The notes under the pieces: generated by a model
Database searches by the model: none
What the model was told of the DNA's origin: nothing
What the model saw: only the letters and a program-made list of their open reading frames with translations
NCBI GenBank assembly: GCA_947184155.2
Contig: CAMXCT020002024.1
Span: 576,938-640,937 of the forward strand
Length of the DNA stretch: 64,000 bases
Source of the DNA: Cladocopium goreaui
Lineage: Eukaryota; Sar; Dinophyceae; Suessiales; Symbiodiniaceae
Direction: 5' to 3'
Translations under genes and position numbers: made by a program
Shown here: in pieces, positions 39,451-64,000 of the stretch
How the letters are laid out: each line of letters opens with the position of its first letter
Numbering within the stretch: position 1 is the stretch's first letter

Positions 39451-39496
39451 TCGCTCTTCTTCTATTTCTCTCTTTAGGCCGGGGCGGTGCCGCCGG

Positions 39497-40010
39497 AGCG
39501 CCACGAAACGCAACCCTTTCGCACGAAATGGACGTTGGACGCCAAAAACTGAGGTAAAATTGCGATTTTACTTTGTCCATCGCAACCCTTTCGCACGAAA
39601 TGGACGTTGGACGTTAAAAACTGAGGAAAAAAAATTGCGACTTTGAAGCGTCGCGCGCAACCCTTTCGCACGAAATGGACGTTGGACGTCAAAAACTGAG
39701 GAAAAATTGCGACTTTGAAGTGTCCCGCGCAACCCTTACGCACGAAATGGACGTTGGACGTCAAAAACTGAGGAAAAATTGCGACTTTGAGGTGTCCCGC
39801 GCAACCCTTACGCACGAAATGGACGTTGGACGTCAAAAACTGAGGAAAAATTGCGACTTTGAGGTGTCAATCGCAACCCTTACACACGAAATGGAGGTTG
39901 GACGTCAAAAACTGAGGAAAAATTGCGATTTTACTTGGTCAATCGCAACCCTTACACACGAAATGGACGTTGGACGTCAAAAACTGAGGAAAAATTGCGA
40001 TTTTACTGTG
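39497..40010. repeat. ~70-bp tandem repeat, seven copies
   Basis: Units start with CGCAACCCTTWCGCACGAAA, continue with TGGACGTTGGACGTCAAAAA and end CTGAGGAAAAATTGCGAYTT plus a variable tail. Both strands stay open through several units; judged non-coding. Confidence 0.95.
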
Positions 40011-41047: not shown

Positions 41048-41278
41048 GTGTGATGGCATTCTCAGTTTGGAACGCAGCGAACAAATCCTTTGCAGTGGAT
41101 TGTGCAACTCTGCACCGACAAGCATAGTTTACCTCTTTACCTCTTTCCTTGGCTCAGATGTGAACGTAGAGACAAGATGCATTGTGTACAGAGTGAACAT
41201 CCATATTCTTATATGTACGCTGAATGTTCGTGAAACAAGTGACGATTGGCAAACAGGTATCTTGAACATTTCTTGGAC

Positions 41279-41320
41279 TTCTCGAGGTTTCTGTGGGGGC
41301 TGTCCCTGAGATCTCGAGAA
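41279..41320 (+). repeat. Conserved-loop hairpin, copy 1
   Basis: Stem TTCTCGAGGTTT / AGATCTCGAGAA (12 pairs, two G-T) around a loop close to CTGTGGGGGCTGTCCCTG. In the 5' flanking repeat. Confidence 0.75.
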
Positions 41321-41620
41321 TTGCATTGTGACAATGTCAGTGTTTGTTTACGATGCAGTGGATCTATGTAAGTACAGCACGAAAAAATATATGTAATGTT
41401 TTCATGGAAACGCATGAGCAGTGGACAAAAAATACTATTCGGGCCGATCCTGACATGCCGCCATTTTTAAGTCGGGACCTTATATGCAAATGAATAACAT
41501 GTGGTTTGATGATTTGATGTGTTCATTGTAAGCTTCACTGTTGACACGTTCAGCCTTCAGTTTGCAGGACTCTGCGACAGTGGTTCTTTGCCATGTCAAA
41601 CTCATGCGTGGCATTCTCAG

Positions 41621-42965
41621 TTCTTTTGTGGACATGTCCATGATGATTGTTTTGTGCACAGAGTGAACATTCTTATTCCCATATGTACGCTGAATGTTCG
41701 TGAAACAAGTGATGATCGGACCGCATGGTTTTTGACAATGAAAATGATCTGATGCTGGTTTCGCAGTGCGGTTGATGTATTTATATATAGCATGTGTATT
41801 GTTTGCATGTTTGCCATTCTTTGATAGACGTTGTTTGGGAAGCAGCAGCTGAGTTTTGAGCTTGCAGGTCGTTCTCCAGAGGATGGTGTCTTCTTATCGC
41901 AAGCTCAGGAGTTGCGATCCCAGTCTCGAGCTTCACAGAGTATGTTTTGCGTTGGTCCATGCTAATTCACTGTTTCACGTTCAGACCATGTTGACCTCTT
42001 TGCTCTATAGATGTGAATTGATCATTCCTTGTCTTAGATGTGAGCAAATGGACAAGACAAGAGTCACGCATGGGGAAACAAAATACCATGCAGCATGAGC
42101 AAATAGTGTAGGCATGCTTGACAAGACACCCCAACGGTTCTGGCATTTCTCGAGATTTTTTGAGATTTCTGAACGTGGTTCGATCCTTACTTACAAATTG
42201 CATGTGCGTCTTTCGTTGCCATGTCTGTTGTTAATGTTTTTTGTCACAGTTTGTCTTTTGAAGGACTTGGCATTCTGCAGAGTCTTCTATGCTGCTGAGG
42301 GGATTTGAATGTGCGTGATGCTCGCTTACCTTGAACTCATGAAGATGACGGATGTAGTTTATAGCATCATGGTACCGGCTTTTGCTTGTTTTTGTTGGCA
42401 AACTGTGTGGGAAATCGTCTATTCAAATGAACAACATGTGGTTTTAGTTGGGAATTCACGGTACCAGATTTCTTTGAAATGTGTTGCTTTGACGTGTTCA
42501 TTGCAAGCTTCACTGTTCAGTTTGCAGGTCTCGGCGACAATCGTGCCCATGTCCAGTGTCAAACTTAGCAGTTGTGCTTCGAGTTTCGAAGTGCGAGTGC
42601 GTAGCCAAGTGTCAAACTCATGAATTGTTTTCAGTTTCGAAGTCCATGATGATGCAACACGGAACAAGCATAGTGCACCTCTTTACTTCTTTACCTCTTT
42701 TCTGGGCTCAGACGTGAACGGAAAGACAAGATGCATTGTGCACGGAGGAAACAAGTGACGGTTGGCAAACAGTTATCTTGAACATTTCTTGGACTTCTCG
42801 AGGTTTCTGTAGGGGCTGTCCGTGAGATCTCGAGAATTGCATTGTGACAATGTCAGTGTTTGTTTACGATGCAGTGGATCTATGTGATGTATAGCACGAA
42901 AAAATATATGTAATGTTTTCATTGAAATGCATGAGCAGTGGACAAAAAATACTACGGGAATCATT
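41621..42965 (+). repeat. Left copy of ~1.35-kb direct repeat
   Basis: 41,621-42,186 matches 57,926-58,491 and 42,187 to about 42,965 matches 59,818 to about 60,605, almost base for base in the first parts. The two halves are contiguous here. In the right copy they are separated by 1,326 bp that carry a small gene. Confidence 0.9.
42795..42836 (+). repeat. Conserved-loop hairpin, copy 2
   Basis: Perfect consensus: stem TTCTCGAGGTTT / AGATCTCGAGAA, loop CTGTAGGGGCTGTCCGTG. Lies 185 bases before the ATG of the Helitron replicase gene. Confidence 0.8.
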
Positions 42966-43020
42966 GTACCGTACAATTTTGTGGTCGCTGTTTCATTTGC
43001 TGAAGGGAATGTCTGTGCGA

Positions 43021-46000
43021 ATGGAGCATGCGACCGCGTCATCCTCGTCGTCCGATGGCGTGGAAGTTCGGTTGCAGGAGCTGCGTAGCAGTGCTGTGAC
43101 CAGGGGTCGTGAATGGCTCCAGGATGCCCTGGCAAACATTTCAGTCATGGAGCTTCGCAAAATGGCGCATGCTCGAAATGTTGGCCGTGGACCGGACAAC
43201 AAGTGGCTTGCGGTTGGAGAGGTGCGCGCTCGATTGCTGGATGTCTTGGCACCACGCATGCAGGTCCGGTGGGGCAGAATAGGATTGTGACGAAAGTTGC
43301 GTGTTTGTCACATGGTGCAATGTTGTGACCGAATTTGCATGTGTGTCAGACATGGCATCATGTTTGTGACATGCCAAGGATCGACAAACAAATATCGTCA
43401 ACATTTGTTGCATCTCTTGAGGTCTCTGTAGGGGCTGTCCGTGAGATCTTGAGAATTGCACATGCCAACGTTCGTTTGTGATGTAGTGGATCTATGTGGT
43501 ATTATTTCATTGATATGCATGAGCAGCGGGAAAAAATTGTAGAATGATGGCGGTTTTGTGGTGGCAGTGTGTCGGATGCTGCAGGTGGAAGAGGCATCGG
43601 CTGCGAAATTGGAAGAACTTCGCCTTGGGGCTGTTTCACAGGGCAGGGAGTGGCTCAGTCGTTCTTTGGACGAAATGCGAAAAGAGGAGCTTCGAGTCCT
43701 GGCTACTGCGGGTGGTGTGGAGACACGATCCGGCAAGGCTTGGCTGCCTGTAGCAGAGCTGCGCAACTCGTTGATGAAAGTCTTGGAACCCTCCACGGAG
43801 GTTGGGTTCAACCAAAACATGTGTTGTGACATGAGTTGTTTTTGTGACCGAATTTGAATCTTTGTCACATGGTGCGATGTTGTAGAATGATGGTGGTTTT
43901 GTGGTGGCAGTGTGTCGGATGCCGCAGGTGGAAGAGGCATCGGCTGCCAAATTGGAAGAACTTCGCCTTGGGGCTGTTTCACAGGGCAAGGATTGGCTGA
44001 GGCGTTCTTTGTCGGAAATGTCAGCTCGTCCGCTTCGAGTTCTGGCTGCTGCGGGTGGTGTGCAGACACATTCCAACCGGAATTGGCTGCCTGTAGCAGA
44101 GCTGCGCAACTCGTTGATGAAAGTCTTGGAACCCTCCACGGAGGTTGGGTTCAACCAAAAAATGTGTTGTGACATGAGTTGTTTTTGTGACCGAATTCGC
44201 ATGTTTGTGAGACATGGCATCATGTTTGTGCAATACCAGGGATCGACAAACAAATATCTTCAACATTTGTTGCATCTCTTTAGGTCTCTGTAGGGGCTGT
44301 CCGTGAGATCTTGAGAATTGCATAGTGATCATGCTAATTTTCGTTTGTGATGTAGTGGATCTATGTGTTATGTTTTCATTGATATGCATGAGCAGCGGGA
44401 AAAATTTGTAGGGTGATGGTTGTTTTGTGGTGGCGGTGTGTTCCATGCTGTAGGTGGAAGAAGCATCGGCTGCCAAATTGGAAGAACTTCACCTTGGAGC
44501 TGTTTCAGAGGGTGAGGAGTGGCTCAGTCGTGCTTTGTACGGAATAGGAAGAGACGAGCTTCGAGTCCTGGCTACTGCGGCTGGTGTGGAGACACGATCG
44601 GGCAACGCTTGGCTGCCTGTAGCAGAGCTGCGTAATTCGTTGAAGAAAGTCTTGGCGACTTCCATGGAGGTTGGGTGTAATTAAAAAAACGACATCTTGA
44701 AGTTTCTGTGGGAGCTGTTTGTGACATCTCGAGAATTGAATTGTAGACTGTCGGCATTGCAAAAACGTCAAGTGCGGCTGTTTTTTTTATATATTTTTTT
44801 TAGCAGGAGCCGTGTCACGATGATACCCTTGCATCTGGTGCAAGTGTCTTGTGGGGCTGGCTGAAACGATGTTTGGAAAGTCCTTCGGCGCCTGATACTA
44901 CATTGCTTCGAGATGCTGTTCCAGAACAAAAAGATCGCATGCGTATTTTAGCGGTTTTGGCCGACAAGACCATGGGTCAGGTGGAGGGATTGCATCTTTC
45001 GCTTGCTTCTTTGGATGCTCGTGTGGTGGATGCGACGTTGCCGCTTCTTGCTACTTTCGATGAAGTGCAGCAATCGTGGCCCAGCAAAGCTGTCACGGAT
45101 TCTGTTGATTTATTAGATTTACCAGGTTACTTCGCCTCCATTGGCATGGAGCATTTGCTGCGGCATCAGGTCGTGGCATTGTTGTCCTGTGTTTTGCTGA
45201 GTGTATCGGAAGAAAGACGACTTCAATGGTGTCGTTTGGTGGGGTTCACCATCGACGCGGACATGTTGGAAGTGGCGAGCCGTTTGTGGGATGTCCACAC
45301 ACTTACAGCTGCCTGTGAATGGGACAGTTCTGGTGGTTATGAGGATCGTGACAATGTGGTGGAGGTGAGTGGTTGTCGAAACTATTGTATGGCCTGCGTT
45401 AGTTTTTTTTGTCGTGTCTTGCCGGTTCGCGGTTGTTTGGTCTTTGTGTTGCTTGCAGGTGGTCCTTGGCATCCTGTGGGGCACGAAAGCGTTGGTGGTG
45501 GATGATGAGGGCGAGGTGCGCCGGCGTCGAGGTAAGCTGGATGCTGCAGACGCGACGTACCTGCGATGCCTGATGCGGAGATATGGTTGGGAAAGATTTG
45601 ACCAGGACGTGGAGGTGTGCTATTGGTCCGAATGTTTTCCATCTGCTCGCTATGGGAACAAGAAGTGTTTACAGTTTGCTTGGCTTTTGCTGACGCAGTT
45701 ACTTCATCCTCGCCAGACGCCTGCATTGCAAGCTATGCGCTCACGTCACGATCCAGTGACGGTCGCAGAACTCCGTGATTCCAGGACGAGTGCGTGTCGT
45801 TGTTGTGTGTTTTGTGAAGTTTTCTTACCTTTGTCACCTTTGTGGGTATTTGCATGAGAAAATGAATTATCATGTGTTATAGACGGCATCATGATGCCGA
45901 GCTGTTTTGTCCCATTTATGGGGAAATGTTCTTAATAAAATGACATGACATATGTCATAGATGGCATCATGTTTTTGAAATACCAAGGAGCGACAAACAA

Positions 46001-49000
46001 ATATCTTCAACATTTGTTGCATCTCTTGAGGTCTCTGTAGGGGCTGTCCGTGAGATCTCCAGAATTGCTCATGTAAAGCATAATGGTACCGAGCTTTTTT
46101 TGTTTGCGCGATGAATGAGATAACGTATGTTATTTATACATCATGCGCGTGATCATGGTAGCCAATATATCTCGAGATCATCAGAGATATCTTCTCGAGG
46201 TTTCTGTAGGGGCTGTCCGTGAGATCTCGAGGAATTGCATACTGATTATGACATCGTGTGTACAGGAGCGGCGTGTCTCCGGTTGTCGTTCAATTGGAAC
46301 TGGATATACGACAATGGCAGGAAGTGCAGCAGTGCTTGCGGTTGCCGACTTCAGATGAAGACGGTGTGCTGTTCAAGCGGGTGTCGGAGTATTTGGAGAA
46401 GGAGAAGAAGGTGCGCTGTCGTTCCATGAAAGCTGCATTCCCTGGCGATGTGGACAACATCAAGGAGTTGAAGTTGGATTGTTTGGAAGCTTCGGATGAT
46501 GCAGAGAATGGTATCAAATGGAGATCCGACACGGAACGGAACTTGATGCAGTCGATTCCTGGGTGGACTGAAGGAACTCTTTGCAAGGCCGCTTTTGTGC
46601 CATTGAGTGCCATCCTTTTCGGCGCTGGCACTTCTGTTGTGGAATGTGTTCCGGAGGTGGATGTGGAAGGGGATGGTAATGCAGTTGTTCCTGACAGCAC
46701 TGGCTCTTCCTGTGTGGAAGTTGCTGAGGAGGCAGATGTGGAGATGGATGTTGCTGCGGGCATTGCTATGGAGGCCTTGCCAGAGAATTTGCAAGTTGCC
46801 AAGAAAGCATTTGCTGTGTTGGAAAATGTGAATATGAAGTTTGAGATCAAGCTGCGTGAAGTTGCGCAGATGTTGGACTGCAGTCCAGCTATCACTGCTA
46901 TTGGTGAAGCGCTGTCTGGCCTTGTGTTATGGTCTTATGATGATGATGATGTTCAGAATCCGCTGGAGCGTTACCAGTGCAGACTGTGCAATTTTGGAAC
47001 TGGCGGACAGAAAGAGTTTTTGGAACATTTAGTGGAGAAACACAGTGGAGGTGCCGATGCCAGCCGTGTGCTCATCGAGTATCGTAAGAAGGTCATTGGA
47101 CTATTGACACACCTGGGCCCCACAGTTTCTTGTCTGCGCTGACCTTTTGTGGGATCGGGGTACTGAGCTTTTTGTAGCTATTTGTGTGGAATTTGTATCA
47201 TAAACGGAGATAATAGTTTTAATTCACGGCGTCGTGGTACTGAGTTTTTTGCGTTTTGTATTTCTGTTAGCACGATCGGAGTAGGGTAGTGTAACATGTT
47301 TGATGCGAGATATCATGGTAGTGAAATTTGCTGATGATGTTTTGATGACGTGATGCATCAGGTCACCAGCTTTGCTTCGCAACGTCGCCTCATGGAGAAT
47401 GCTGATGAAAGGCTTCGACAGCCCGAGCAAGGAGGTCGCTTTGAAACTGCATGCGTGGTGTGTGCTCGCAGGTTTTGGCGGGAGCAGCTGAAGATGTTAA
47501 TCTTATTCCAAGATCCGGCTGGCAGCACCGAGTTGGAGAACGGTGCGGTGGATGTGATTCCGTGTGGTCAACAGGAACGCTTGTGTCGAATTCTTGGAGT
47601 TGAAAGATACAGTCGAAGATGGCCGAATATCCCTTTGGAGGCTCTGCATGCTTCGGCTGTTGAACATCCATACTGCAAGGGGGAGCATTTGCTCTTACAC
47701 AAGCGTCGGATGCCGGTGGACTTGAAGGACCCTTACCACTGACTGCACGGGTTTGTTGCTTTCATTGCGGGATCACGGTATACCAACTTGTTTGTAGCTA
47801 ATTTTCTGTTCACGGCATCGGATTACTCGACTTTGTTTGGGAGACTGCACGGGTTTGTTGCTTTCATTGAGGGATCACGGTATACCAACTTGTTTGTAGC
47901 TAATTTTCTGTTCACGGCATCGGATTACTCGACTTTGTTTGGGTGAAGTTCTAGTAGTATGTTCGGATGTCACTGCAATTGCAGGATCCTTGCCTGGTGT
48001 GCAGTGACTGCAAGGGCTCGTTGATGTCATCTAGTCTGACGTTGCCTCGGCACAGCTTGGCCAATGACCTTTGGATGGGCGAGCAACTGTCCGCATTGCG
48101 TGGCCTGGCCTCGGCCACGAAGCGACTTTTGCCGATGACACGGGCGTGCATGCAGGTTGTGGTATTGCAGCCCGGGCATTTGTCGCGTGAGGAACGTCAG
48201 CATGGCTTTGTAGGGAATTCGATTTTTCTCCCGCAAGCAAAGCCGTCTTCAGTGCTGACCACGCTCCCTCCAAAAGATGTTGATATGCAAGATGCAGTTT
48301 TGTTTGTTTTGGTTGGAAGCCAGAAGGATGCAGTCAAGGGCTCTTCTTTGTTGCGTGCCCCGAGAGATGAGTACACTGCCGCTGTTGAATGTTTGAGGAA
48401 AACGAATCCTTTCTATGCGGAGGTGGAACTGGGAGATGGCAGTGATGATCTTTTGGAGGGCTGTGTCCTGGAAACTGCGGAGGATTCTGCATTGGCGCAG
48501 GAGTTGCTGCAGCGAGGTCCTGCAGACGCACAGGGACAAGACGCGTCGGATGATGAGAAGATGGACGATGCGAGTGAAGAAAAGCGTGAAGGCCTAGATG
48601 CACCAGGCAGGGTTCTGAATTGAATTTGGTTTTATTGATTGCTTCATGGTAGGGACTGTCCGAATGAAGCGATCGAAAACGATGTTAATATCGAGTTTTG
48701 CTTTGTAACGTCTGCCTTTCGGAACCATTTTGTTTTGTGTGGCAGAAAGTAAATATGGAAAACTCGCGCACACATTGCAGGTGCAGGTGATTGCTTCATG
48801 GTAGGGACTGTCCGAATGAAGCAGCGTGAAGGCCTAGATGCACCAGGCAGGGTTCGGAAGTGAATTTGGTTGTATTCATTGCTTCATGCTAGGGACTGTC
48901 CGAATGAAGCGATCGAAAACGATGTTAATATCGAGTTTTGCTTTGTAACGTCTGCGTTTCGGAACCATTTTGTTTTGTGTGTGTGAAAGTAAATATGGAA

Positions 49001-50932: not shown

Positions 50933-50975
<43 letters not shown>

Positions 50976-53900: not shown

Positions 53901-56420
53901 GATGTGCCGAATAAAGCATGATATGCCTTGTGTTGCAACATGCGTTGTTTGCTGCATCATGCTAGCAAGCTGTAAGTAGTCATCCGTGTGGAAAATGTCT
54001 ACTAAAAGGATATGATACGTTCCATGATCACCAGTATGTGGTACCGAGCTTTTGTGATATGGCCTTGTTGACGAGAACATATGTTACCGACAAACAATCA
54101 TGTAGCTGCGGTGTTGCAGGATGCGTTGCAGCGTTTGCGTGACTTTGTGAATGGTTTGGGAGGTGTTCCGGATGCGAGGATTGATTTGGGAATCAAAGGC
54201 AACGCAGCCAGTGGATTGGAGCGTAATTGGACGTTCGCCGAAGCCCAGAGGTCTTTGATGCTGCAGAAGCAATATTTGGAATTTTGCGTTGGAGGCGGAG
54301 CTTTGTGGTTGTGGATGAGTTTTGTTTTGTTTTTCTTTTTTGTCGTTGTAACATATAGCTGATTTGCTGAATATGTCAGTTCTGTTGTTTTTTTTTCGGG
54401 GGGGGGGGAATTTTGTTTGCTTGTTGTGTTCTCGTTGGTGGGTCTTCATGCAGCAGGTGGTGAAGAGGATACTGAGATGATGGCAGATCATGTTTTTCGG
54501 CCTTTGCCAGAGACGGAAGATGCCTTTTTGGTGGAGCTGAACCAGAGGAATGTGGGTCCGAGTGATTATGCTTCTGCCTTGCTTGTGGAGCACAGTCTGA
54601 ATCGCCAACAGATTTTGGCCATTGCGCCCATTGCTTGGGTCATGGAACAGATGTGGCTTAACCGAAGCAATCCGGACAATTGCATTGCGGATGGTGCGTG
54701 CAATGAAAGGTGCAATTGTCTTTGGCTCGGAGCTGGTGGATCTGGAAAGACGTATGCATACAGCAAAGTATTGAGGCCACTCTTTCGACGCTTCTTTGGA
54801 CAGGATGGTTATGTTGCTGGTGCTCCGACTCACGCTGCTGTTCGCCTCCTGGGGCCTGAGGCCAAAACTTTGCACAAGTGGGCCAATGTGCACAAGAGCA
54901 GCAGCTTGGATCGCCGCTCCTTGCGTTCGGCGAAGAGCAAGGGCAGCCCGATCGAAAAGAAGATCGAAGGCATCATGGCCATGCTGTTGGACGAGTTGTC
55001 GATGGTTCCTTCGGATGTGTACCATGCTGCTTCGCTTCGATTTGCCACTGTTCGACAAGCTCGACTTATGCTTGACATGGGCGATTACTTGAAGCAGTGG
55101 TTTGGGAAGGTGCCCATTGGTGTGCAAGTTGCTGACTTTCTACAATTGCGACCCACTGCGCAAGCATCCTTGTGCGAATGGGTGGATGCGCCACGAGCTA
55201 CTGATCCTGCACCGCCTCAAGACCAAGAAGACCAAAGCGATGCCGAAGAGGCCGTGGAGAAGGAGGCGGCTGAACGCACCAGCAATGCCTCAGAACTTGG
55301 ACGGATCGCGTTCAAGCAATCGCTTCAGCGAGTTGTGCACTTCACTGGATCCGGTCGTTTTTCGAAGTGTGCATCCGGACAGCAGCTTGTGAGGATTCTT
55401 TTGTCCATGCGGCGAGGCGAACATCTGGAGGATGCATTGTGGGGAGCTTTGGAATCTCGAGTGATCAGCCGAGAGCAACTTTTTTCTGACAATTCCTTGC
55501 GCTCAAGGTTGTTGAGTGCTCACTGGGGCGGCCTGGCGTGGGAACAGGTTGCTCGTTTACAGCATTTGCGGGTGGCTTGGGAAGCTCAACAGAGGTCCAC
55601 GACTCTTTTCTTGGTGCAAGCTATTGATCGTGCATCGGGGCCCACAGATTTGACAAGGGAGCAGAGCCTGAAGGCATTGCAGGTTGTGAACATGACAAGA
55701 ACGCAGTATCTCATGGGCATTTGCCCTTTGTATGAAGGGATGGCAGCACGTGTAAGTTGCATTTTGGACATGCCGATGCTGAGTCGAGAGTTGCCGGTCA
55801 TTGTTCGCTCCATTAAGTTGCACCCGAAGGAACCTGTAATTTCAAACAGCAGTGGACGTGTCGTTTTGCAATATCAGCCGTTGGCCGTCTTGGTGGAGAT
55901 CGATGACCCGGAATATCGTGCCATTGCATTGCCAGATGGCAGTGCTCCGAAGGGACACGTTTGGCTGCGTCCCGTTACATGTGATCAGGCCTGGGATCTT
56001 CCTCTTGGGGGCAATCAATTTATGCAGGTTCATCGCAAACAGTTGCCACTGGCACCTCGTCACGTTCTCACGCACTACGGTTTGCAGGGCATCACTGCCA
56101 GACAAGGGCTGCTTGCTTTCATGTCCAAACCGTCCTGGATGAGTCAAGCGGACTATGGCTTGGCTATGTACGTGATGTTGTCAAGGCCAACCAAGCTGGA
56201 AGATCTGTGGATAGTGGATTTGCCGCCTCGCAATGTGTTCGAAAAGTTTCTGCACGAACACAATCCTCTTTTGGTGCAGCGGATGCGGGAGTTTGAAGGT
56301 CAGGCCTGCGTGGACGAGCGGAAGGCCTTGAAGTATGTGCATAGACTTTCATGGCAGTGCATCCCTTGGGTGTCACAGCATTTGTCTGCAGATGAAATGT
56401 CTGCTGATCTTTTTGCTTAG
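43021..56420 (+). CDS. Helitron-type replicase (Rep-helicase), ~16 exons
   Basis: Exon model, phases agreeing at nearly all junctions: 43,021-43,263; 43,585-43,800; 43,928-44,143; 44,454-44,669; 44,807-45,364; 45,459-45,787; 46,266-47,124; 47,362-47,727; 47,985-48,573; 49,025-49,522; 49,674-50,871; 51,142 to about 51,945; about 52,174-52,829; 52,947-53,762 (or 53,768); 54,120-54,294; 54,457-56,420. The product is about 3,200 aa. Domains in order: four SAP-like repeats, unknown helical region, C2H2 finger, Cys-pair plus DUF6570-like block, Helitron N-domain, HUH and two-Tyr nuclease, long middle, Pif1-type helicase. In the family this protein nicks and strand-transfers single-stranded DNA and unwinds it, moving the element by rolling circle. 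Donors are mostly GT, with GA at 45,788 and 47,728 and GC at 54,295. No frameshift or premature stop was seen. The exon 12/13 junction is not resolved. Termini of the mobile element were not found, so domestication is possible. Confidence 0.8.
43413..43456 (+). repeat. Conserved-loop hairpin in intron 1
   Basis: Arms CTCTTGAG / CTTGAGAA keep pairing through two G-T pairs where the consensus has C-G. Loop CTGTAGGGGCTGTCCGTG unchanged. Confidence 0.7.
44273..44317 (+). repeat. Conserved-loop hairpin in intron 3
   Basis: Arms CTCTTTAG / CTTGAGAA, weaker than the intron-1 copy. Loop identical to consensus. Confidence 0.65.
44694..44731 (+). repeat. Degenerate hairpin in intron 4
   Basis: TCTTGAAGTTTCTGTGGGAG followed by CTGTTTGTGACATCTCGAGA. 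Recognisable but decayed in loop and stem; 25 bases after exon 4. Confidence 0.5.
46022..46234 (+). repeat. Two conserved-loop hairpins in intron 6
   Basis: Copies at 46,022-46,064 (arms decayed) and 46,192-46,234 (stem TTCTCGAGGTTT / AGATCTCGAGG, strong). Loop CTGTAGGGGCTGTCCGTG in both. A GGTACCGAGC motif lies between them. Confidence 0.7.
46960..47050 (+). other. C2H2 zinc finger in replicase exon 7
   Basis: C-x2-C-x12-H-x4-H in YQCRLCNFGTGGQKEF and EHLVEKH, with Cys codons at 46,978 and 46,987 and His codons at 47,026 and 47,041. Preceded by an acidic, Val/Asp/Glu-rich linker. Likely DNA-binding. Confidence 0.75.
47362..48573 (+). other. Cys-pair and DUF6570-like block of the replicase
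   Basis: Exon 8 carries CVVCARRFWREQL. Exon 9 carries CLVCSDCKGSL, then LPRHSLANDLWMGEQL, LRGLASATKRLLPMTR, FLPQ, a VLFVLVG strand and a KTNPFYAEVEL end. This order matches the DUF6570 region found upstream of the Rep domain in many Helitron proteins (known family pattern, matched by eye). Exon 9 ends in a very acidic tail. In the unspliced frame a TGA at 48,621 follows, 13 bases before a hairpin, so a separate short protein ending there is an alternative. Confidence 0.65.
47764..47942. repeat. ~100-bp tandem duplication in intron 8
   Basis: Two nearly identical units starting GACTGCACGGGTTTGTTG contain ATCACGGTATACCAACTTGT and CGGCATCGGATTACTCGAC. The first follows the GA donor of exon 8 by 13 bases. 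Confidence 0.85.
48579..49024. repeat. Tandem duplication of intron 9 with three hairpins
   Basis: A unit of about 245 bp beginning GCGTGAAGGCCTAGATGC and ending ACATTGCAG is present twice, so two candidate 3' splice sites exist. Three hairpins (48,637-48,674, 48,789-48,822, 48,877-48,914) have stem GATTGCTTCAT / ATGAAGCGATC or part of it and loop GGTAGGGACTGTCCGA. Confidence 0.85.
49025..51945 (+). other. HUH / two-tyrosine Rep nuclease block
   Basis: Exon 10 has the Helitron signature GMSFPDLFPWGDGLPF. Exon 11 has SAHLFVTPNIADMRSSLL, ASDPVAQARCF and LETQGRGSLHPHMLIIL, in which His-Pro-His (50,384-50,392) is the HUH metal site, then HKCTKSCFK. Exon 12 has Cys-rich sequence, CRFGCFH, NPVAQAVMRCNVDVKYIG and, after an acidic Ser-rich insertion, FYTGEYAAKK, in which Tyr 51,881 and Tyr 51,893 are spaced Y-x3-Y as in the catalytic pair of Helitron Rep. 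All key residues are present. The roughly 90-residue insertion before the tyrosines is unusual. Confidence 0.85.
50894..51015. repeat. (TTG)n microsatellite in replicase intron 11
   Basis: About 40 TTG/TCG units just inside the intron, causing a Leu/Val open frame beyond exon 11 that should not be read as coding. Confidence 0.9.
54457..56420 (+). other. Pif1-type helicase domain of the replicase
   Basis: The last exon, about 654 codons. Walker A GAGGSGKT lies at 54,729-54,752, motif Ia GAPTHAAVRLLG, Walker B LLDELSMV at 54,984-55,007, motif III VADFLQLRP, then a long middle, HYGLQGITARQGL in the place of the usual QG motif, and YVMLSRPTKLEDLWIVDLPP as motif VI. This is the SF1B helicase module fused to Rep in autonomous Helitrons. 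It ends at TAG 56,418-56,420. A charged linker (about 55,215-55,290) interrupts the domain. Confidence 0.88.
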
Positions 56421-56536
56421 CATTGCTGGCGGGGAGCTTCGTCAGCTGCCATGTAGCGTTGTTTAGATTTACCGGATGTCTTTGTTCGACATGGTCATCT
56501 TATTTCGACGGTATACTACACTGCGACCTGACGTAT

Positions 56537-56746
56537 GTTTCTCGCGGTAGGGACTGTCCGAGCGGGGAGCAGGCGTTGCGTCATGAAATTAGAGTTAGAA
56601 GATGTAAAACATGACCCAACGTATGTTTCTCGCGGTAGGGACTGTCCGAGCGGGGAGCAGGCATTGTATCATGAAATTAGAGTTAGAAGATGTAAAACAT
56701 GACCTGACGTATGTTTCTCACAGTAGGGACTGTCCGAGCGGGGAGC
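56537..56746 (+). repeat. Three tandem hairpins after the replicase stop codon
   Basis: Copies 56,537-56,570, 56,625-56,658 and 56,713-56,746 lie in 88-bp tandem units. The stem is GTTTCTCGC / GCGGGGAGC (nine pairs, four of them G-T) and the loop GGTAGGGACTGTCCGA. The stem is unrelated to the stems of other clusters. Confidence 0.8.
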
Positions 56747-56789
56747 AGGCGTTGCGTCATGAAGTTAGAGTTAGAACATGTAAAACATC

Positions 56790-57215
56790 TACCTGACTTC
56801 AAAGGCATCCCGTAAAACTGACATTAGACAAACACTGGAGCCGGCACGTTCGTTGACTGTCATCTCTGGATCTCTGCACGCAACCTTTACTTTGATGAAA
56901 AAGAGAAATGCACTTCGCTGTGAAGAAAAAACAAAAGGCCGAGGTCGAGAAGCAAGAGAGCTAATGAAAAAGCAAAGATAGGAAGAATAGAATGAAAAAT
57001 AAGGAAAAGGAGAACGAAGAAGGAATAAATCGAAAGGGTAAGTGACAAGAGCACGAAACTTACAAAAGAGAGGAGGAACGACAGAAAGAGAAGAAGGAGA
57101 AAAACAAAAGGCGGGACCCCCCCCACCAACACACAATTGAAACTGATGATCGACTTTGCTGTGTCGTGTTGACATGCACAAAAACCTGACCTGATGCCCT
57201 GGTTTTCGCAGTGGC
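56790..57215. other. A/G-rich non-coding stretch
   Basis: Purine-rich on the plus strand (56,890-57,120), giving long minus-strand Phe/Leu/Ser frames that reflect composition only. Confidence 0.5.
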
Positions 57216-57219
57216 AGTT

Positions 57220-57640
57220 AATGTATTTATATATAGCATGTGTATTGTTTGGATGTTCGCCATTCTTTGATAGACGTTGTTCGTGAAGCAGCAGTTGAGT
57301 CTTGAGCTTGTAGGTCATTCGCCAGAGGATGGTGCTTTCTTATTGCAAGCTTCGGAGTCGCGATCCCAGTCTCGAGCTTCAGCGAGTATGCTTTGTGTTG
57401 CTCCATGGGAATTCATTGTTTCACGTGCAGACCTTGTTGACCTTTTTGCTCCATAGATGTGAATCAAACATTCCGGGGCTCAGATGGCAGGAAATGGACA
57501 AGACAAGAGTGACGCATGGGGAAACAAAATACCATGCGGCATGAGCAAACAGTGTAGGCATGCTTGACAAGACACCCCCAACAGTTGTGGCATTTTTCGA
57601 AATTTTTGAAGGGACCGTCCGTGAGATCTCAAGATTTGAA
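57220..57640 (+). repeat. Diverged copy of the flanking repeat with hairpin
   Basis: Resembles 41,760-42,180 (TTTATATATAGCATGTGTAT, AGAGGATGGTGCTTTCTTAT, GGCATGCTTGACAAGACACC) with more changes. It ends in a hairpin at 57,598-57,638 with loop GAAGGGACCGTCCGTG and A/T-rich arms. In the copies at 42,140 and 58,445 the loop is missing at the matching point. Confidence 0.7.
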
Positions 57641-57925
57641 ACTGCCCGATGATGTTCTCCAACATGTAGTCATTGGAAATTTGAGACATAGCCTTTCTCT
57701 TTTCAAGTGTGCCGCCATGTCGTTGGAGTCTGGATCTCTACACGGAACATTTACCTTGATGAAAAAGAGAAATACACTTTTCTGTGAAGTTTATCGCCTT
57801 GCTGTGTTGTATGATCGACTTGCTGTGTCCTGTTGTCAAAAGGTTAACGTTTAGCGATGCCGAACTTTCATGTGCTCCAGGTGTGTTGCTTCCTTGCTGT
57901 TTGGCACTCAATGTTTTGTTATCAA

Positions 57926-58491
57926 TTCTTTTGTGGACATGTCCATGATGATTGTTTTGTGCACAGAATGAACATTCTTATTCCCATATGTACGCTGAAT
58001 GTTCGTGAAACAAGTGATGATCGGAACGCATGGTTTTTGACAATGAAAATGATCTGATGCTGGTTTCGCAGTGCGGTTGATGTATTTATATATAGCATGT
58101 GTATTGTTTGCATGTTTGCCATTCTTTGATAGACGTTGTTCGGGAAGCAGCAGCTGAGTTTTGAGCTTGCAGGTCGTTCTCCAGAGGATGGTGTCTTCTT
58201 ATCGCAAGCTCAGGAGTTGCGATCCCAGTCTCGAGCTTCACAGAGTATGTTTTGCGTTGGTCCATGCTAATTCACTGTTTCACGTTCAGACCATGTTGAC
58301 CTCTTTGCTCTATAGATGTGAATTGATCATTCCTTGTCTTAGATGTGAGCAAATGGACAAGACAAGAGTCACGCATGGGGAAACAAAATACCATGCAGCA
58401 TGAGCAAATAGTGTAGGCATGCTCGACAAGACACCCCAACGGTTCTGGCATTTCTCGAGATTTTTTGAGATTTCTGAACGTGGTTCGATCC
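57926..58491 (+). repeat. Right copy of direct repeat, first half
   Basis: Matches 41,621-42,186 at constant offset 16,305 with only a few differences. Confidence 0.92.
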
Positions 58492-58815
58492 TGTGCGGGC
58501 CGATCTTGATCTGCCGCCATTTTTAAGTCGGGACCTTGAAGGTTTCGTGACGCTGAAATTTCGCCTCCTTGAAGTATGCTCTTTCCGTGCCGTCTGGAAC
58601 ATGTGTTTGTTTTCTCAGATCGACGCGAAATGCTGAGGTGGCACTGGGATCATGGTTTTTTCATGTGAAGGACCGTCAGAATTTGAAGCAACTGTGTGCT
58701 GTTAGTGTCAAAATGTCATCATTTCGATTGAAAGAACAGTCGGGCCGATCGAATTCTTGGCATTTTTTGAGTTTCAACCTTGAAAACATTGCTGCCCCCG
58801 GGGCTCAAGAAACTG

Positions 58816-58853
58816 TTCTCGAGGTTTTTGTAGGGCTTGTCCGTGAGACTTCG
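58816..58853 (+). repeat. Conserved-loop hairpin upstream of small gene
   Basis: Stem CGAGGTTT / AGACTTCG (eight pairs, two G-T), loop TTGTAGGGCTTGTCCGTG. It ends 10 bases before the candidate start codon at 58,863. Confidence 0.7.
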
Positions 58854-58862
58854 TCACTCGCA

Positions 58863-59455
58863 ATGGTCTTATCAGAACTGCGGACGTGGGTAGGTCTGAG
58901 CGCTGCCGATGCGGTGAGCCTTTTCGAGGAACGTGTGGAGATCGAGCCACATTGGGGCGGTCGTTGGGGCTTGAAGCCGTCGGCGACGGAGGTGCGGACA
59001 TGTAGTTCACAACGTGGTCCATTTTCAATTGGACGTCATGTTTGATAGTGTTCCTTGGGCATGTGAATGCAGGCCATTCTGCGAGCACAGCAAAGTGATC
59101 CAGCGGGTGCTTCTGCCAAGGAGTTGGAAGCACACGAAATTGTCTTCACACCCGTGGGTGTGTTGAATTTGGTGGTCTCTTAGCATTTGCTGCTTTTGGG
59201 TTGGGTGTTTGTTCGTGATTGTTTTTTGCCGTGTCATGTTTGTGATTGTAGCTTTTTGTGTTCTTTGATGTTTCATGATTGTTTTTCAGTTTTGTGCATT
59301 TTCGGATGTTGTCGTCTAAGGCTGAGGGCAAACTGTGGCAATTCGAGAACTTTCCGGGATACTTTCGATTGTTCGACAAGTTGTCTGCGGAGAAAGTGGG
59401 GCCGGACGGCACATTGTATTATACAGTGATGCCGACTGCGTATGCCATCCAGTGA
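58863..59455 (+). CDS. Small three-exon gene, unknown function
   Basis: Exons 58,863-58,991, 59,073-59,171 and 59,321-59,455, all phase 0 with GT-AG junctions, giving about 120 residues: MVLSELRTWVGLSAADAVSL, AILRAQQSDPAGASAKELEA and LWQFENFPGYFRLFDKLSAE, ending YAIQ-stop. No family recognised. The Leu/Ala-rich first exon suggests a helical domain. It lies wholly in the 1,326-bp segment present in the right direct repeat and missing from the left one. Two hairpins follow its stop. The start codon is the first ATG after a hairpin and is not certain; the frame is open further upstream. Confidence 0.5.
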
Positions 59456-59467
59456 TGTGGAGGGACA

Positions 59468-59591
59468 ACGTGCTGTAGGGTCTGTCCGTGCATGTATCCT
59501 TCTGCTTCTCGGGCCTCTGTGAGCCCATTTGTTTTTTTTGCCATGCAGTGATGTGGAGAGACAACGTGCTGTAGGATTTGTCCGTGCATGT
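59468..59591 (+). repeat. Two tandem hairpins after small gene
   Basis: Copies 59,468-59,495 (12 bases after the stop) and 59,564-59,591, stem ACGTGC / GCATGT (six pairs, one G-T), loops TGTAGGGTCTGTCCGT and TGTAGGATTTGTCCGT. They lie in about 96-bp tandem units. Confidence 0.8.
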
Positions 59592-59817
59592 ATCCCTCTG
59601 CTTCACGGGTCTCTGTGAGGCCATTTGTTTTTCACCATCTGTTAACAACATGTGGAACTGTTGTTGGCGATGTGGACAATCCTGGACGTCATGCGAGAGA
59701 AACACAGAGTTCTGCGAATTGATGCGCGGGACAGTATATAGGTTGTTTATCATCTGATGCGATTGGGAAAGTGACATCTTCCATTAGGCTTGATCAACAG
59801 GTGTCACACTTGAAGTT

Positions 59818-60605
59818 TTACTTACAAATTGCATGTGCGTCTTTCGTTGCCATGTCTGTTGTTAATGTTTTTTGTCACAGTTTGTCTTTTGAAGGACTTG
59901 GCATTCTGCAGAGTCTTCTATGCTGCTGAGGGGATTTGAATGTGCGTGATGCTCGCTTACCTTGAACTCATGAAGATGACGGATGTAGTTTATAGCATCA
60001 TGGTACCGGCTTTTGCTTGTTTTTGTTGGCAAGCTGTGTGGGAAATCGTCTATTCAAATGAACAACATGTGGTTTTAGTTGGGAATTCACGGTACCAGAT
60101 TTCTTTGAAATGTGTTGCTTTGACGTGTTCATTGCAAGCTTCACTGTTCAGTTTGCAGGTCTCGGCGACAATCGTGCCCATGTCCAGTGTCAAACTTAGC
60201 AGTTGTGCTTCGAGTTTCGAAGTGCGAGTGCGTAGCCAAGTGTCAAACTCATGAATGGTTTTCAGTTTCGAAGTCCATGATGATGCAACACGGAACAAGC
60301 ATAGTGCACCTCTTTACTTCTTTACCTCTTTTCTGGGCTCAGACGTGAACGGAAAGACAAGATGCATTGTGCACGGAGGAAACAAGTGACGGTTGGCAAA
60401 CAGTTATCTTTAACATTTCTTGCGCTTCTCGAAGTTTCTGTAGGGGCTGTCCGTGAGATCTCGAGAATTGCATTTTGGTAATGTCAGTGTTTGTTTATTA
60501 CGATGCAGTGGATCTATGTGATGTATAACACGAAAAATATATGTGATGTTTTCATTGAAATGCATGAGTAGTGGACAAAAAAACATATTACGGGAAGCAT
60601 TGTAG
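59818..60605 (+). repeat. Right copy of direct repeat, second half
   Basis: Matches 42,187 to about 42,965 at constant offset 17,631, with differences increasing toward its end. It includes a hairpin at 60,426-60,467 (stem with one A-C mismatch). Confidence 0.9.
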
Positions 60606-60731
60606 CGTTCAATGTTGTACCGTTCAATTTTGTCAAAACGCATGAACAGTGAACAAAACAAATTATATGGGAATCATCGTACCGTTCAATTTTGACGATC
60701 GGCCATTTTATATCTTGGACATTTGTTGCAC

Positions 60732-60773
60732 TTCTCGAGGTTTCTGTAGGGGCTGTCCGTGAGATCTCGGGAA
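60732..60773 (+). repeat. Conserved-loop hairpin upstream of J-domain gene
   Basis: Stem TTCTCGAGGTTT / AGATCTCGGGAA keeps all 12 pairs (A-to-G in the right arm gives T-G). Loop CTGTAGGGGCTGTCCGTG. 160 bases before the start codon of the next gene. Confidence 0.8.
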
Positions 60774-60934
60774 TTGCATTGTGATGATGTCAGGTTTTGG
60801 TTACGATGCCGTGGATCTATGTGATATATAGCACAAAAAAATATATGTGATGTTTTCATTCATTTCAATGCAGCAACAGTGGAAAAAAAGTACGGCAATC
60901 ATTGCGTATTTAATTTTGTCTCGGCCGCGACTCA

Positions 60935-61777
60935 ATGGCCGCGTGGAGACCGCCGGAGGATGAGGAAGTGGCCTGGGGGTTGGAAGTTCTGGGCTGCAAG
61001 CGATCCCATATTGTGGACATGTCGGAGGATGAGTTCCGATACATTTTGAAGCCGCGGCGGAAGCAAGTTGCATTGGCACTGCATCCGGACAAGCAAGACG
61101 ATGAGAGAAGGATGATGGCGGAGGCTCAAATGAAACGCTGGAATGTGGCCTGGGAGAGACTGATGCGTAGTGTTCCGCGACAGTTCAAAGCAGCTGGTGT
61201 AGACGTCGTCCCGGCGCGAACTCAAGCTGCGCTGAATGCTCATCCTGGGATGTGGGAAGAGCCCTGGCGTGTTCCTCCTTTGTTGGTTCGGCAGTGGAGA
61301 CGCAGAGGTGCAGGGCATCAGGAGTCTGAATCAGGAGATGGCGTTCCAAGTGGTTCGCAACAGCCTGGCGCGCAGTCTGCACAGGCAGGAACGGGTACCG
61401 GTGCTACTAGTTCGGATGGTGGTATGCCCAGTGCTTCAGCGGGCAAGGATCCAGAAGGTGATGCTGGCACTTCGCAGTCGGATTCGACCAAGGCTTCAGA
61501 GCCTTGCACTGGTACGCCTCACTGTGTTGATTTTGATACTAGGCATGGTGCCGTTCCTGCTCAAAAATTGCTCGAATACAAGTTTTTGTATTCCGCACAT
61601 GGAAAATGCGTTCAGTGCATGGATTACTACGCGAGGCAGCCCGGTCTTGATGTGACCTGTAAATCTTGCAACATGAATGCTCGCCAATGGGCTGCCAGTT
61701 CCACGGGTAGCAGAAAGCGTACCACGGTACATATCCCAGATGATGTGGAACGATGGCTGCAACGCCACAACTTGTGA
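60935..61777 (+). CDS. J-domain protein with novel Cys-rich C-terminal domain
   Basis: An uninterrupted 280-codon frame from ATG. Residues 34-80 resemble a J-domain: the basic helix ILKPRRKQVALAL leads to His-Pro-Asp-Lys at 50-53, then the AEAQMKRWNVAWERLM helix. J-domains stimulate Hsp70 ATPases through the HPD tripeptide. Residues about 100-185 are low-complexity Ser/Gly/Gln. Residues about 186-280 form a domain shared with the next gene: PHCVDFD, EYKFLYSAHGKCVQCMDYYA, DVTCKSCNMNAR and IPDDVERWLQRHNL, with two Cys-x2-Cys pairs that probably bind zinc. A role with the Helitron is inferred only from position and shared flanking repeats. Confidence 0.65.
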   Translation: MAAWRPPEDEEVAWGLEVLGCKRSHIVDMSEDEFRYILKPRRKQVALALHPDKQDDERRMMAEAQMKRWNVAWERLMRSVPRQFKAAGVDVVPARTQAALNAHPGMWEEPWRVPPLLVRQWRRRGAGHQESESGDGVPSGSQQPGAQSAQAGTGTGATSSDGGMPSASAGKDPEGDAGTSQSDSTKASEPCTGTPHCVDFDTRHGAVPAQKLLEYKFLYSAHGKCVQCMDYYARQPGLDVTCKSCNMNARQWAASSTGSRKRTTVHIPDDVERWLQRHNL

Positions 61778-61812
61778 TAATGTGTATATAGTTTGCTTCG
61801 ATGGCCAACATT

Positions 61813-61963
61813 CCACTCGCATCTAAAGAGACTGTTCGTGATGCGTGGTGGGTAACATAAGTGCCATTTTGAAAAAGTTCAACTTGTGAGAATGTGTGCA
61901 TAGTTTGTTTTGAGAGCAAACATTCCACCCGCATTTAAAGAGACTGTTCGTGATGCGTGGTGG
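61813..61963 (+). repeat. Two tandem hairpins after J-domain gene
   Basis: Copies 61,813-61,851 and 61,925-61,963, stem CCACYCGCAT / ATGCGTGGTGG with one bulged T (ten pairs). The loop variant TAAAGAGACTGTTCGTG is the most diverged in the window and carries a paired change (see findings). Confidence 0.8.
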
Positions 61964-62039
61964 TTAGCGGAAGTGCCGTTTTGAAAAGTACACTCGCGGT
62001 TGACCGTCATCCATGCAGTGATGTCATGCATTGAGATGC

Positions 62040-62440
62040 ACTGTTATGATTTGTTCTGAGATTTCACCAGCATCAGGTCATTTTCATTGCACAACATGTG
62101 GTTTGATTCGGCGAGTCACGGTAACCGATTTTTTTGAAGTGTGTTGATTTGATGTGTTCATCGCCAGCTTCACTGTTCAGCAGTTTGCAGGTCTCTGCGA
62201 CAATGGTGTCCATGCCCAGTGTCAAACTTAGCAATTGTGCTCTGAGTTTTAAAGTCGGAGAACGAATTCTTTGCATTGGATTGTGTTCTCAGCTTCTCTT
62301 GAACAAGACGAAACAAGCATAGTTTGTCTACGATGATGCAAGACGAAACAAGCTGCTCTTTGCCTCCTTACCACTTTCCTGGGCTCAGACGTGAACGGAG
62401 AAACAAGATGCATGGCAGGAAACACGGTTGGCAAACAGAT
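62040..62440. repeat. Third copy of the flanking repeat core
   Basis: Diverged match to 42,440-42,760 (CACAACATGTGGTTTGATTC, AGTTTGCAGGTCTCTGCGAC, TGTCAAACTTAGCAATTGTG). Non-coding. Confidence 0.7.
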
Positions 62441-62460
62441 ATCTTGAACATTTCTTGCTC

Positions 62461-62502
62461 TTCTCGAGGTTTCTGTAGGGGCTGTCCGTGAGATCCCGAG
62501 AA
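62461..62502 (+). repeat. Conserved-loop hairpin upstream of last gene
   Basis: Stem TTCTCGAGGTTT / AGATCCCGAGAA with one A-C mismatch; consensus loop. 276 bases before the start codon at 62,778. Confidence 0.75.
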
Positions 62503-62777
62503 TTGCAAGTGGTAATATCAGTGTTTGTTTACGATGCAGTGGATCTATGTGATGTATAGCACGAAAAAAAAATGTGATGTTTTTGTTTTTCATTGAAATG
62601 CATCAGCAGTGGAGAAAAAATATTACGGGAAGCATTGTACCGTTCAATTTTATACCGTTCAATTTTGTTGAAACGCATGAACAGTGAACAATATAAAAAT
62701 ATATATTCAAATTGGTAGACGTTGTTCGGGGGGTGTGGTGGTGTAGTGTAACATTGTAGAAAAACTCGGTTCGCGAC

Positions 62778-63629
62778 ATGTCGAACCCCAGTGTTAACGT
62801 CCAAGATCAACAAAAAATTATCGAGTTCCTGCTTTTGAAGTATCAGAATTTGCTGTTGGAGCTTGGGGTGGTGCTCGATATAGAGGACGTGTCCTTGGAA
62901 GTTGTCGAGAAAGCTGCCCGAGATGTCATGGCCTCTTATCCGCAGCCTCCGAGGGACGAGAGTGAAGAAGAACATTTGCGTGAACTGAAAGGATTATTGC
63001 TGGAGTTTGAAGATTGGAAGTTGTGTGATATTCGGGACAGACAGCACATGTTGATCTCAAGATTCAGAAATTTGCTTTTCAATTTGGGATGCAACGACAA
63101 GACATGCAAGGAAGTTTCGTTGCCCTATTTGCAGAATGAGCTTGGGAATCTCGAATCGCGTGGTCATTCACTCCGATTTGTTTCGAACTTGAAGTGCATT
63201 CTTCGGGACTTGAAAGCTTGGAGAATGCTATGTGAAGGCCGGCTCAGCGAGGAAATGGATGGTGTTACCTTTTGGCGCAAAATGAGATTTGCACCACCGT
63301 CTCCGAGCGATGAAGACTCGGATAGTGAGGGTCCGACACTGTGTCGCGACGCTCCACATTGCAATGACTTCGATGAGAACTATCCTCTGGGACATTGTAT
63401 CTCGAAGAAAAGAAAGAAGACAATCACCGAGGAGAGACGGATGGAATACAAATTTCTCTTTGCTGCTGAGGCTCATTGTTTGAGGTGCCTGAAATATTAT
63501 GCGGCGCAGCCAGACTTTGATGTCAATTGTGAGTTGTGCGGGAAAAATGCTCGGGGGTGGGCAGATTCGAACACGACTTACAACATTCCCACGGACATCG
63601 ATGCGTGGCTCCGTGACAAGAATCTTTAG
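62778..63629 (+). CDS. Protein with novel Cys-rich C-terminal domain, no J-domain
   Basis: An uninterrupted 283-codon frame from ATG. Residues 1-185 are predicted mostly helical (QQKIIEFLLLKYQNLLLELG, LLLEFEDWKLCD, FVSNLKCILRDLKAWRML), with no family recognised. An acidic Ser linker (SDEDSDSEGP) follows. The C-terminal third matches the neighbouring gene: LCRDAPHCNDFDENY, EYKFLFAAEAHCLRCLKYYA, DVNCELCGKNARGWA and IPTDIDAWLRDKNL-stop, keeping both Cys-x2-Cys pairs. The shared domain on two different N-termini suggests domain shuffling. The base composition is like the replicase exons. Confidence 0.65.
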   Translation: MSNPSVNVQDQQKIIEFLLLKYQNLLLELGVVLDIEDVSLEVVEKAARDVMASYPQPPRDESEEEHLRELKGLLLEFEDWKLCDIRDRQHMLISRFRNLLFNLGCNDKTCKEVSLPYLQNELGNLESRGHSLRFVSNLKCILRDLKAWRMLCEGRLSEEMDGVTFWRKMRFAPPSPSDEDSDSEGPTLCRDAPHCNDFDENYPLGHCISKKRKKTITEERRMEYKFLFAAEAHCLRCLKYYAAQPDFDVNCELCGKNARGWADSNTTYNIPTDIDAWLRDKNL

Positions 63630-63641
63630 AAGCGTTTCACA

Positions 63642-63719
63642 GTGACACTGTAGGAACTGTCCGTGTGTCACCTGAAGCCCATTGAAGGTGACATTGTAGG
63701 AACCGTCCGTGCGTCACCT
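63642..63719 (+). repeat. Two hairpins after last gene
   Basis: 63,642-63,671, stem GTGACAC / GTGTCAC, loop TGTAGGAACTGTCCGT, 12 bases after the stop. 63,686-63,719, stem AGGTGAC / GTCACCT extended by weak pairs, loop with TGTAGGAACCGTCCGT. Both are followed by CACCTGAAGC. Confidence 0.8.
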
Positions 63720-63884
63720 GAAGCTGCCCGGGATGCGATTCCCGTTTTGTGAGGAAAGGATGGCAGCTTTGTAGAGCGGAATCATACACAGCGCATGTCA
63801 TACAGGTGATCATGGTGCCGAGCTTTTCTGATGTACTTGCTTTGGCATGTCGTGGTAAGGGTAGTGTCACACGAGTCTTGTCAG

Positions 63885-64000
63885 GGTGAAGAAGCAGCAG
63901 TTGAGTCTTGAGCTTGCAGGTCATTCTCCAGAGGATGGTGCTTCGTTATCGCAAGCTCCGGAGTCGCGATCCCAGTCTCGGGCTTCAGCGAGTATGCTTT
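63885..64000 (+). repeat. Partial copy of the flanking repeat at window edge
   Basis: Matches 41,838-41,945, 57,283-57,390 and 58,143-58,250 (AAGCAGCAGTTGAGTCTTGA, CCAGAGGATGGTGCTTCGTT, GGCTTCAGCGAGTATGCTTT). Cut off by the window end. Confidence 0.85.

Follow-up and report, generated by a model that had tools for sequence, protein, structure and literature searches.

Giant Helitron transposons of the dinoflagellate Cladocopium goreaui carry dozens of internal hairpins that combine a nearly invariant loop with stems of free sequence. The structure is selected, strand-specific and shared by two Helitron families, each with its own loop. The hairpins were analysed in a window of 64,000 nucleotides (nt) from assembly GCA_947184155.2 (contig CAMXCT020002024.1, positions 576,938-640,937, forward strand; coordinates below are window positions), in which a Helentron-type Helitron of 34.6 kb begins. 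We favour, at slightly better than even odds (about 0.56), that they would be a cis-acting, protein-bound RNA motif in the transcripts of these elements, perhaps serving 3'-end formation, export or stability.

Loop, stems and covariation

A sequence-only reading of the window had reported about 24 plus-strand copies of a loop between 41.28 and 63.72 kb. Searching for the loop GTAGGGRCTGTCCGTG with up to three mismatches returned 23 matches, all on the plus strand (41,293-63,711), where 0.43 are expected by chance; no shuffle reached this count. The match at 51,619 was dropped from the hairpin set (two mismatches, within a coding exon, out-of-register pairing, 14.0 bits), as were eight plus-strand matches of the hairpin region with four mismatches and no stem. 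Three other matches with four mismatches (44,708, 61,825 and 61,937) have stems in register and were added. The resulting 25 hairpins, all on the plus strand at 41,280-63,722 (Table 1), bear out the reported number and range. A covariance model built from them (R1) recovers all 25 at 34.5-54.5 bits in an unfiltered search of both strands of the window, and the next-best match, at 51,605, scores only 14.0 bits. When loop matches chosen blind to the stem were put to a stem test, the 23 region matches (up to three mismatches, 51,619 included) scored 5.5-11 and 35 control matches (up to four mismatches; from the minus strand or from the first 41 kb of the plus strand) scored 0-5.

All 25 hairpins align without gaps. 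A lower stem of 6-12 bp with free sequence is followed by an internal loop with 4 nt on one side and 2 nt on the other, a purine-pyrimidine apical helix of 3 bp and a tetraloop that ends in UG and is mostly ACUG or GCUG. In this family (family 1) the internal loop usually reads UGUA or GGUA, facing GU or GA; in the second family described below it is AACC facing GA. In the 25 hairpins its first and last bases are linked (T with T in 19/25, G with A in 5/25 and A with A in 1/25). Loop and internal loop are nearly invariant inside each family.

Three counts document covariation of the stems, one of them made on family 2 alone (94.9% pairing, below). Among the 25 hairpins, 89.7% of cells are paired, with 74 two-sided changes, against 66.3% and 22.8 after shuffling (0/500), and two-sided changes occur in 12/12 lower-stem pairs. 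The stem families hold duplicates (11 copies in family A; two to three each, or one, in the remaining families), and the independent sample is the stem families, not 24 single copies. Since the window rows are related by duplication, a second count used 28 dissimilar hairpins from both families (15 of the 37 of the window's element, 12 of the 19 of the family-2 sequence C194 and one from L042); 97.4% of cells are paired, with 112 two-sided changes, versus 63.8% and 32.1, and sliding the register leaves 30-57% paired (56.5% or less). In rows selected on the loop only, standard pairs make up 172/184 of the inner eight pairs in family 1 (23 matches), 135/144 in C194 (18 matches) and 61/72 in C2046, another family-2 sequence (9 matches). 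Together with the stems found outside the window and the drifted loop of the second family, these counts uphold the earlier proposal of a selected structure, and the arm pairs quoted for it as complementary are present in the sequence and alignment.

Common descent by itself would offer a simpler account, in which a small mobile or tandem palindromic repeat spread in the element and kept its stems by inheritance. Six family-A copies sit in a shared 168-bp module, tandem units measure 88-240 bp and F1 and F2 are spaced by 46 bp. As the sole explanation this is nevertheless already contradicted, and we consider it extremely improbable. The loop is common to about ten visibly different family-1 stems, whose arms remain complementary, two-sided changes are seen within and between families, and the loop of the second family has drifted with pairing kept. 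A few duplicated copies without independent stem changes, a case that the sequence-only reading had raised against itself, do not account for the arms.

Copies beyond the window and a second family

The element extends beyond the window end, and in its further 9.4 kb the unfiltered R1 search finds 12 more hairpins, all in sense orientation (19.9-52 bits, E <=7e-4), with the best non-hairpin match at 10.2 bits. The stems of 11 of these are new to the model, and the twelfth belongs to family A. The covariance model that had been suggested as a check thus separates the 25 hairpins and also finds 12 beyond the sequence it was built from. In all, the window's copy carries 37 hairpins, which are absent from the element's first 2.4 kb and last 0.5 kb.

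Applied to 26 sources, R1 gives 180 matches at E <=0.01. In keeping with the remark that the loop was not noticed in the first 41 kb, neither R1 nor a pattern script finds any in window 1-38,834. Both are likewise negative for L016, R1 for the flanks of L010, L014, L017, L021 and L026 beyond the element ends, and the script for L010. Nine of ten isolated loop matches elsewhere have element sequence in their stretch (for L046, 44 bp at the edge). L045 has no element sequence in 0.8 kb, yet it shares with L046 a hairpin with a new 10-bp stem. This minus-strand variant combines the family-1 loop with the stem TTCCATGTTC/GGACATGGAA, and a T-to-C change in L046 turns a G-U pair into G-C. In the sampled sources, to which the model was applied rather than to the whole genome, the hairpins are limited to element sequence or its vicinity; copies in host genes are possible. 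The 18-base loop pattern has 311 exact copies genome-wide, and its reversed control has 0. Among viral contigs there was one exact loop match, on a GC-rich contig and taken as chance, and no relatives of the element's replicase were found there.

A second Helitron family, with a helicase 66-70% identical to that of family 1, has the same hairpin architecture combined with a different loop and mostly different stems. Its loop, AACC-RGA-ACTG-TCY-GA, was spotted by eye in the sequence and then located by a pattern script. The form AACCAGAACTGTCTGAG occurs in 261 exact copies genome-wide (reversed control, 0). C194 (20.1 kb) carries 19 hairpins and C2046 (24 kb) carries seven, every one on the helicase strand, with 0 on the opposite one. 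Pairing amounts to 94.9% in 17 rows (16 distinct), and the family-1 model does not score these hairpins (best 11.6 bits). The apical helix shifts in step on both sides (GGG/UCC, GAG/UUC, GAA/UUC, AGA/UCU).

Genes J, K, M, O, Q and R are common to both families, as is N in C2046. A hairpin follows K, M, O, Q and R in both families, in family 2 with the family-2 loop and after a gap of 17-71 nt; for N in C2046 it lies 146 nt past the stop. The stems at K, Q and R are unrelated between the families and those at M share CATTGC. The O stems differ by one pair in which both sides have changed (GTGATGC/GCATCAC versus GTGAAGC/GCTTCAC).

Position relative to genes and possible role

At 13 gene ends that we chose, pairing begins 8-166 nt past the stop codon; for gene O (stop TAG 68192-68194) the gap is 34 nt. 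The same tendency is seen with mechanically defined open reading frames (ORFs) of at least 100 amino acids and positive codon score, under a model derived from four Helitron exons and with internal exons included. In family 1 a hairpin lies within 40 nt past 7/20 such stops, one of the seven overlapping its ORF end (null 0.99, 0/5000), within 80 nt past 8/20 (1.8 expected, 1/5000) and within 170 nt past 10/20 (3.3 expected, 2/5000). The corresponding figures for C194 are 7/13 within 80 nt, again with one overlap (null 1.06, 0/5000), and 4/13 within 40 nt (null 0.56, 7/5000). By gene models, 24 of the 37 family-1 hairpins come after stops and two (46,024 and 46,193) are ambiguous.

Mismatches between the arms carry further information. 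Counted over distinct arm pairs in the loop-only rows, G-U exceeds A-C by 27:6 in family 1, 17:3 in C194 and 7:3 in C2046, about 4:1 overall, where composition predicts 2.0, 1.7 and 1.6 to 1. Ratios elsewhere are 45 vs 7 in the 25 window rows and 33 vs 2 in the 28-row set, the latter biased by 13 of the 28 rows coming from a script that scores G-U as a pair; we prefer the loop-only recount. The excess is moderate, and its direction fits a plus-strand RNA.

The sequence-only reading had left the choice between RNA and single-stranded DNA used by a rolling-circle enzyme undecided. Both remain alive, the element encoding an HUH replicase, and RNA is favoured by the position past stop codons, the sense orientation and the G-U excess. 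We propose that the motif acts as RNA and that a protein, either encoded by the element or co-opted, would read the loop and not the stem, as the invariance of the loop on free stems suggests. The most likely use of the hairpins would be to earmark pre-mRNAs of the element itself for export, stability or the formation of 3' ends, and the upstream and intronic copies would serve the same recognition. Loop drift between the families points to family-specific recognition. More tentatively, each giant Helitron family may mark its messages by an RNA hairpin code that is particular to the family and recognised by an element protein, so that its dozen or so genes would form one regulon apart from the host and from other Helitron families.

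Several observations weigh against such an RNA signal. Eleven of the 37 hairpins are found 5' of genes, within putative introns or inside a weak ORF, a poor fit to a pure 3'-end signal; six of these eleven belong to the common 168-bp module. In family 2, no hairpin is found closer than 1.8 kb to the stop of gene J, and those of the helicase gene lie about 340 nt from its stop. Among ten hairpins folded alone, I lacks its expected stem and D, F1 and H fold just 1.1-1.7 standard deviations better than shuffles, while the structure of F2 is shifted by a few bases. Four distant Helitrons (helicase 28-30% identical) have no hairpins in 1.6 kb each by model and pattern script, the family-1 model used there being one that also misses family-2 hairpins. 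The size of the G-U excess is modest. Coding strand and replicase-sense strand coincide, and the orientation by itself is compatible with single-stranded DNA.

This compatibility leaves room for a role in DNA, in which the hairpins would form on the displaced strand in rolling-circle transposition, there to be bound by the HUH replicase or by RPA, or to serve as primers for the second strand. In its favour, the replicase is encoded by the element together with a PIF1-like helicase, a weak match to an RPA-type OB domain is seen below the cut-off in family 2, and every hairpin was found on one strand. An invariant loop on free stems is reminiscent of rolling-circle origins, whose hairpins the cognate HUH enzyme nicks in the loop. 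Such a role appears less likely than one in RNA, and we regard it as unlikely, for a single element holds 37 hairpins with none near either end, these cluster past stop codons instead of spreading across noncoding DNA, and G-T is commoner than A-C beyond composition, if moderately.

Alternatively, each hairpin could itself be cut and polyadenylated and so give the mRNA 3' end, as in giant viruses. The hairpins of Mimivirus have free stems and no sequence conservation, according to the available excerpt of PMC4402537. Location 3' of genes, at the distances given above, and free stem sequence are alike here. The loop is fixed here, however, and tandem, upstream or intronic copies would truncate messages early, which makes this reading quite doubtful. 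The internal loop, the intronic and upstream copies and the setting in a transposon of a cellular genome are further differences from the viral hairpins.

For the favoured protein-bound RNA motif, other known systems offer parallels. The iron-responsive element and the histone stem-loop are mRNA hairpins for a single protein, with a fixed loop on a stem, and are common to several mRNAs; the hairpins here have another loop and geometry, and nothing was found at Rfam thresholds. Expression and nuclear retention elements (ENEs) capture the poly(A) tail with a U-rich internal loop. The internal loop here takes forms such as UGUA/GU or, in family 2, AACC/GA, and is not U-rich, and ENEs were ruled out on this ground from the alignments and the ENE definition. 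What is alike is a structured element in a transposon transcript, as ENEs are described in the available excerpt of PMC12501189; the hairpins here presumably lie in one as well.

Other candidate classes were rejected. A protein-coding repeat was ruled out, as tandem copies spaced by 88 and 112 bp fall out of frame and the stems covary. Introners (intron-generating elements) are not supported, since most hairpins follow stops or sit between genes. Rfam gave 0 matches in the window at gathering thresholds, and an E-value search of 41-64 kb gave one sub-threshold match, on the minus strand and away from the hairpins. A tRNA search found none.

Post-gene hairpin segments are tandemly repeated two to three times with varied unit lengths (48583-49014, 56525-56788, 59443-59632, 61768-61987 and 63637-63722), a pattern that would fit a preference for additional copies or duplication induced by the hairpins.

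No description of such hairpins was found in the listed titles and abstract openings of open-licence literature. If the regulon reading is correct, a DNA transposon would carry an operon-like control system. A structured RNA tag on most genes of a DNA transposon, diverging between families with pairing kept, would represent a new layer of transposon gene control. The two related loop codes would provide a tractable problem of RNA-protein recognition, and the alignment and structure enable a search for relatives.

The host Helitron and its other features

The element is multicopy and has the ends TCCCGAGAGCG...CGCTCTCGGG...CTAG, with flanks that differ among copies. The ends were derived by comparing the window copy with C748, C1546, C418 and C1470 (5' end from C2024, the window's contig, with C748, C1546 and C1470; 3' end from C2024, C748 and C1546). 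A T precedes the 5' end in 4/4 copies and follows CTAG in 3/3, which is compatible with a one-base T duplication. TCCCGAGAGCG at the 5' end and CGCTCTCGGG near the 3' end form subterminal inverted repeats of 10 bp. The HUH replicase, PIF1-like helicase, CTAG, T flanks and subterminal inverted repeats assign the element to the Helentron type. Palindromes near the ends are described for Helentrons, and CTAG, T-flanked ends and subterminal inverted repeats are typical of them (PMC4067079, available excerpt). The RPA-like match of family 2 is also in line with Helentron/Helitron2, whereas a length of 34.6 kb, about a dozen ORFs and dozens of internal invariant-loop hairpins set the element apart.

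In the genome searched (1.17 Gb, 6,202 contigs), the helicase has at least 75 matches, with 67 of 382 candidates scored. At 98-100% identity, at least 21 copies (that of the window among them) span 627 or more of the 656 residues; an internal stop interrupts two of these copies. The analysis thus describes, in a dinoflagellate, a rolling-circle element of 35 kb whose helicase has at least 21 near-identical copies; among the open-licence titles listed, the literature search found no paper on dinoflagellate Helitrons.

Table 1. Features of the Helitron and its hairpins in the window (R1 scores in bits; nt distances from the stop codon).
Feature	Position	Strand	R1	Remarks
Helitron, Helentron type, 34,599 bp	38835..73433	+		window part 38835..64000; end = C2024:650370; boundaries from copies
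Hairpin A1	41280..41319	+	46.3	upstream group
Hairpin A2	42796..42835	+	54.5	~190 nt 5' of ATG 43021
Hairpin G	42989..43028	+	39.9	overlaps ATG 43021
Hairpin A3	43415..43454	+	51.3	putative intron
Hairpin A4	44277..44316	+	50.8	putative intron
Hairpin A5	44695..44734	+	37.0	10 nt past stop TAA 44682
Hairpin A6	46024..46063	+	52.1	166 nt past stop TGA 45855, or intronic
Hairpin A7	46193..46232	+	54.0	
DUF6570 ORF	47958..48623	+		Pfam E 4.3e-16
Hairpin B1	48636..48675	+	44.9	8 nt past stop TGA 48621, DUF6570 ORF
Hairpin B2	48788..48827	+	37.0	
Hairpin B3	48876..48915	+	39.9	
Exon, Helitron_like_N HUH replicase domain	49652..51121	+		Pfam E 6.6e-14; LHPHMLI, HPH motif
PIF1-type helicase exon, Helitron gene 3' end	54363..56420	+		PIF1 E 3.9e-4, below Pfam cut-off; genome-wide copies
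Hairpin C1	56534..56573	+	44.1	109 nt past helicase stop TAG 56418
Hairpin C2	56622..56661	+	44.1	88-bp tandem copy
Hairpin C3	56710..56749	+	40.8	88-bp tandem copy
Hairpin I	57595..57634	+	40.9	weakest stem, not formed when folded alone
Hairpin H	58817..58856	+	40.3	within weakly coding ORF (codon score)
Hairpin D1	59462..59501	+	39.5	12 nt past stop TGA 59453
Hairpin D2	59558..59597	+	34.5	96-bp tandem copy
Hairpin A8	60427..60466	+	53.2	5' of gene J
Hairpin A9	60733..60772	+	52.5	5' of gene J
Gene J ORF	60914..61777	+		weak DnaJ-like match below cut-off; CxxC...CxxC; family-2 homologue 42% over 114 amino acids
Hairpin E1	61812..61851	+	38.5	40 nt past gene J stop TGA 61775
Hairpin E2	61924..61963	+	36.5	112-bp tandem copy
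Hairpin A10	62462..62501	+	50.9	5' of gene K
Gene K	62778..63629	+		paralogue of J (39% over 115 amino acids); family-2 homologue 32% over 306 amino acids
Hairpin F1	63637..63676	+	40.0	12 nt past gene K stop TAG 63627
Hairpin F2	63683..63722	+	38.2	46 bp 3' of F1

The 5' part of the Helitron (38883-41051) consists of three successive tandem arrays with units of 30, 72 and 16 bp, partly shared with the compared copies. The gene at 43021-44684 has about four repeated modules of 80 amino acids, encoded by tandemly duplicated exons, and the C1470 copy apparently has more. Both families contain a dual-specificity-phosphatase-like gene (L015:6078-6851, DSPc E 1.1e-7, just under the cut-off; L044:3342-4136, E 1.3e-10). 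Gene M (L015:325-2829) looks by eye like a divergent kinase and has no Pfam kinase match.

Outside the element, window 12190-14091 contains fragments of a retrotransposon without long terminal repeats (RVT_1 E 4.7e-16; endonuclease-like ORF below the cut-off). Marking the genome as that of a peridinin dinoflagellate, in support of the sequence-only guess of a dinoflagellate, the peridinin-chlorophyll protein family has 150 matches in it and is found in 0/14 control genomes.

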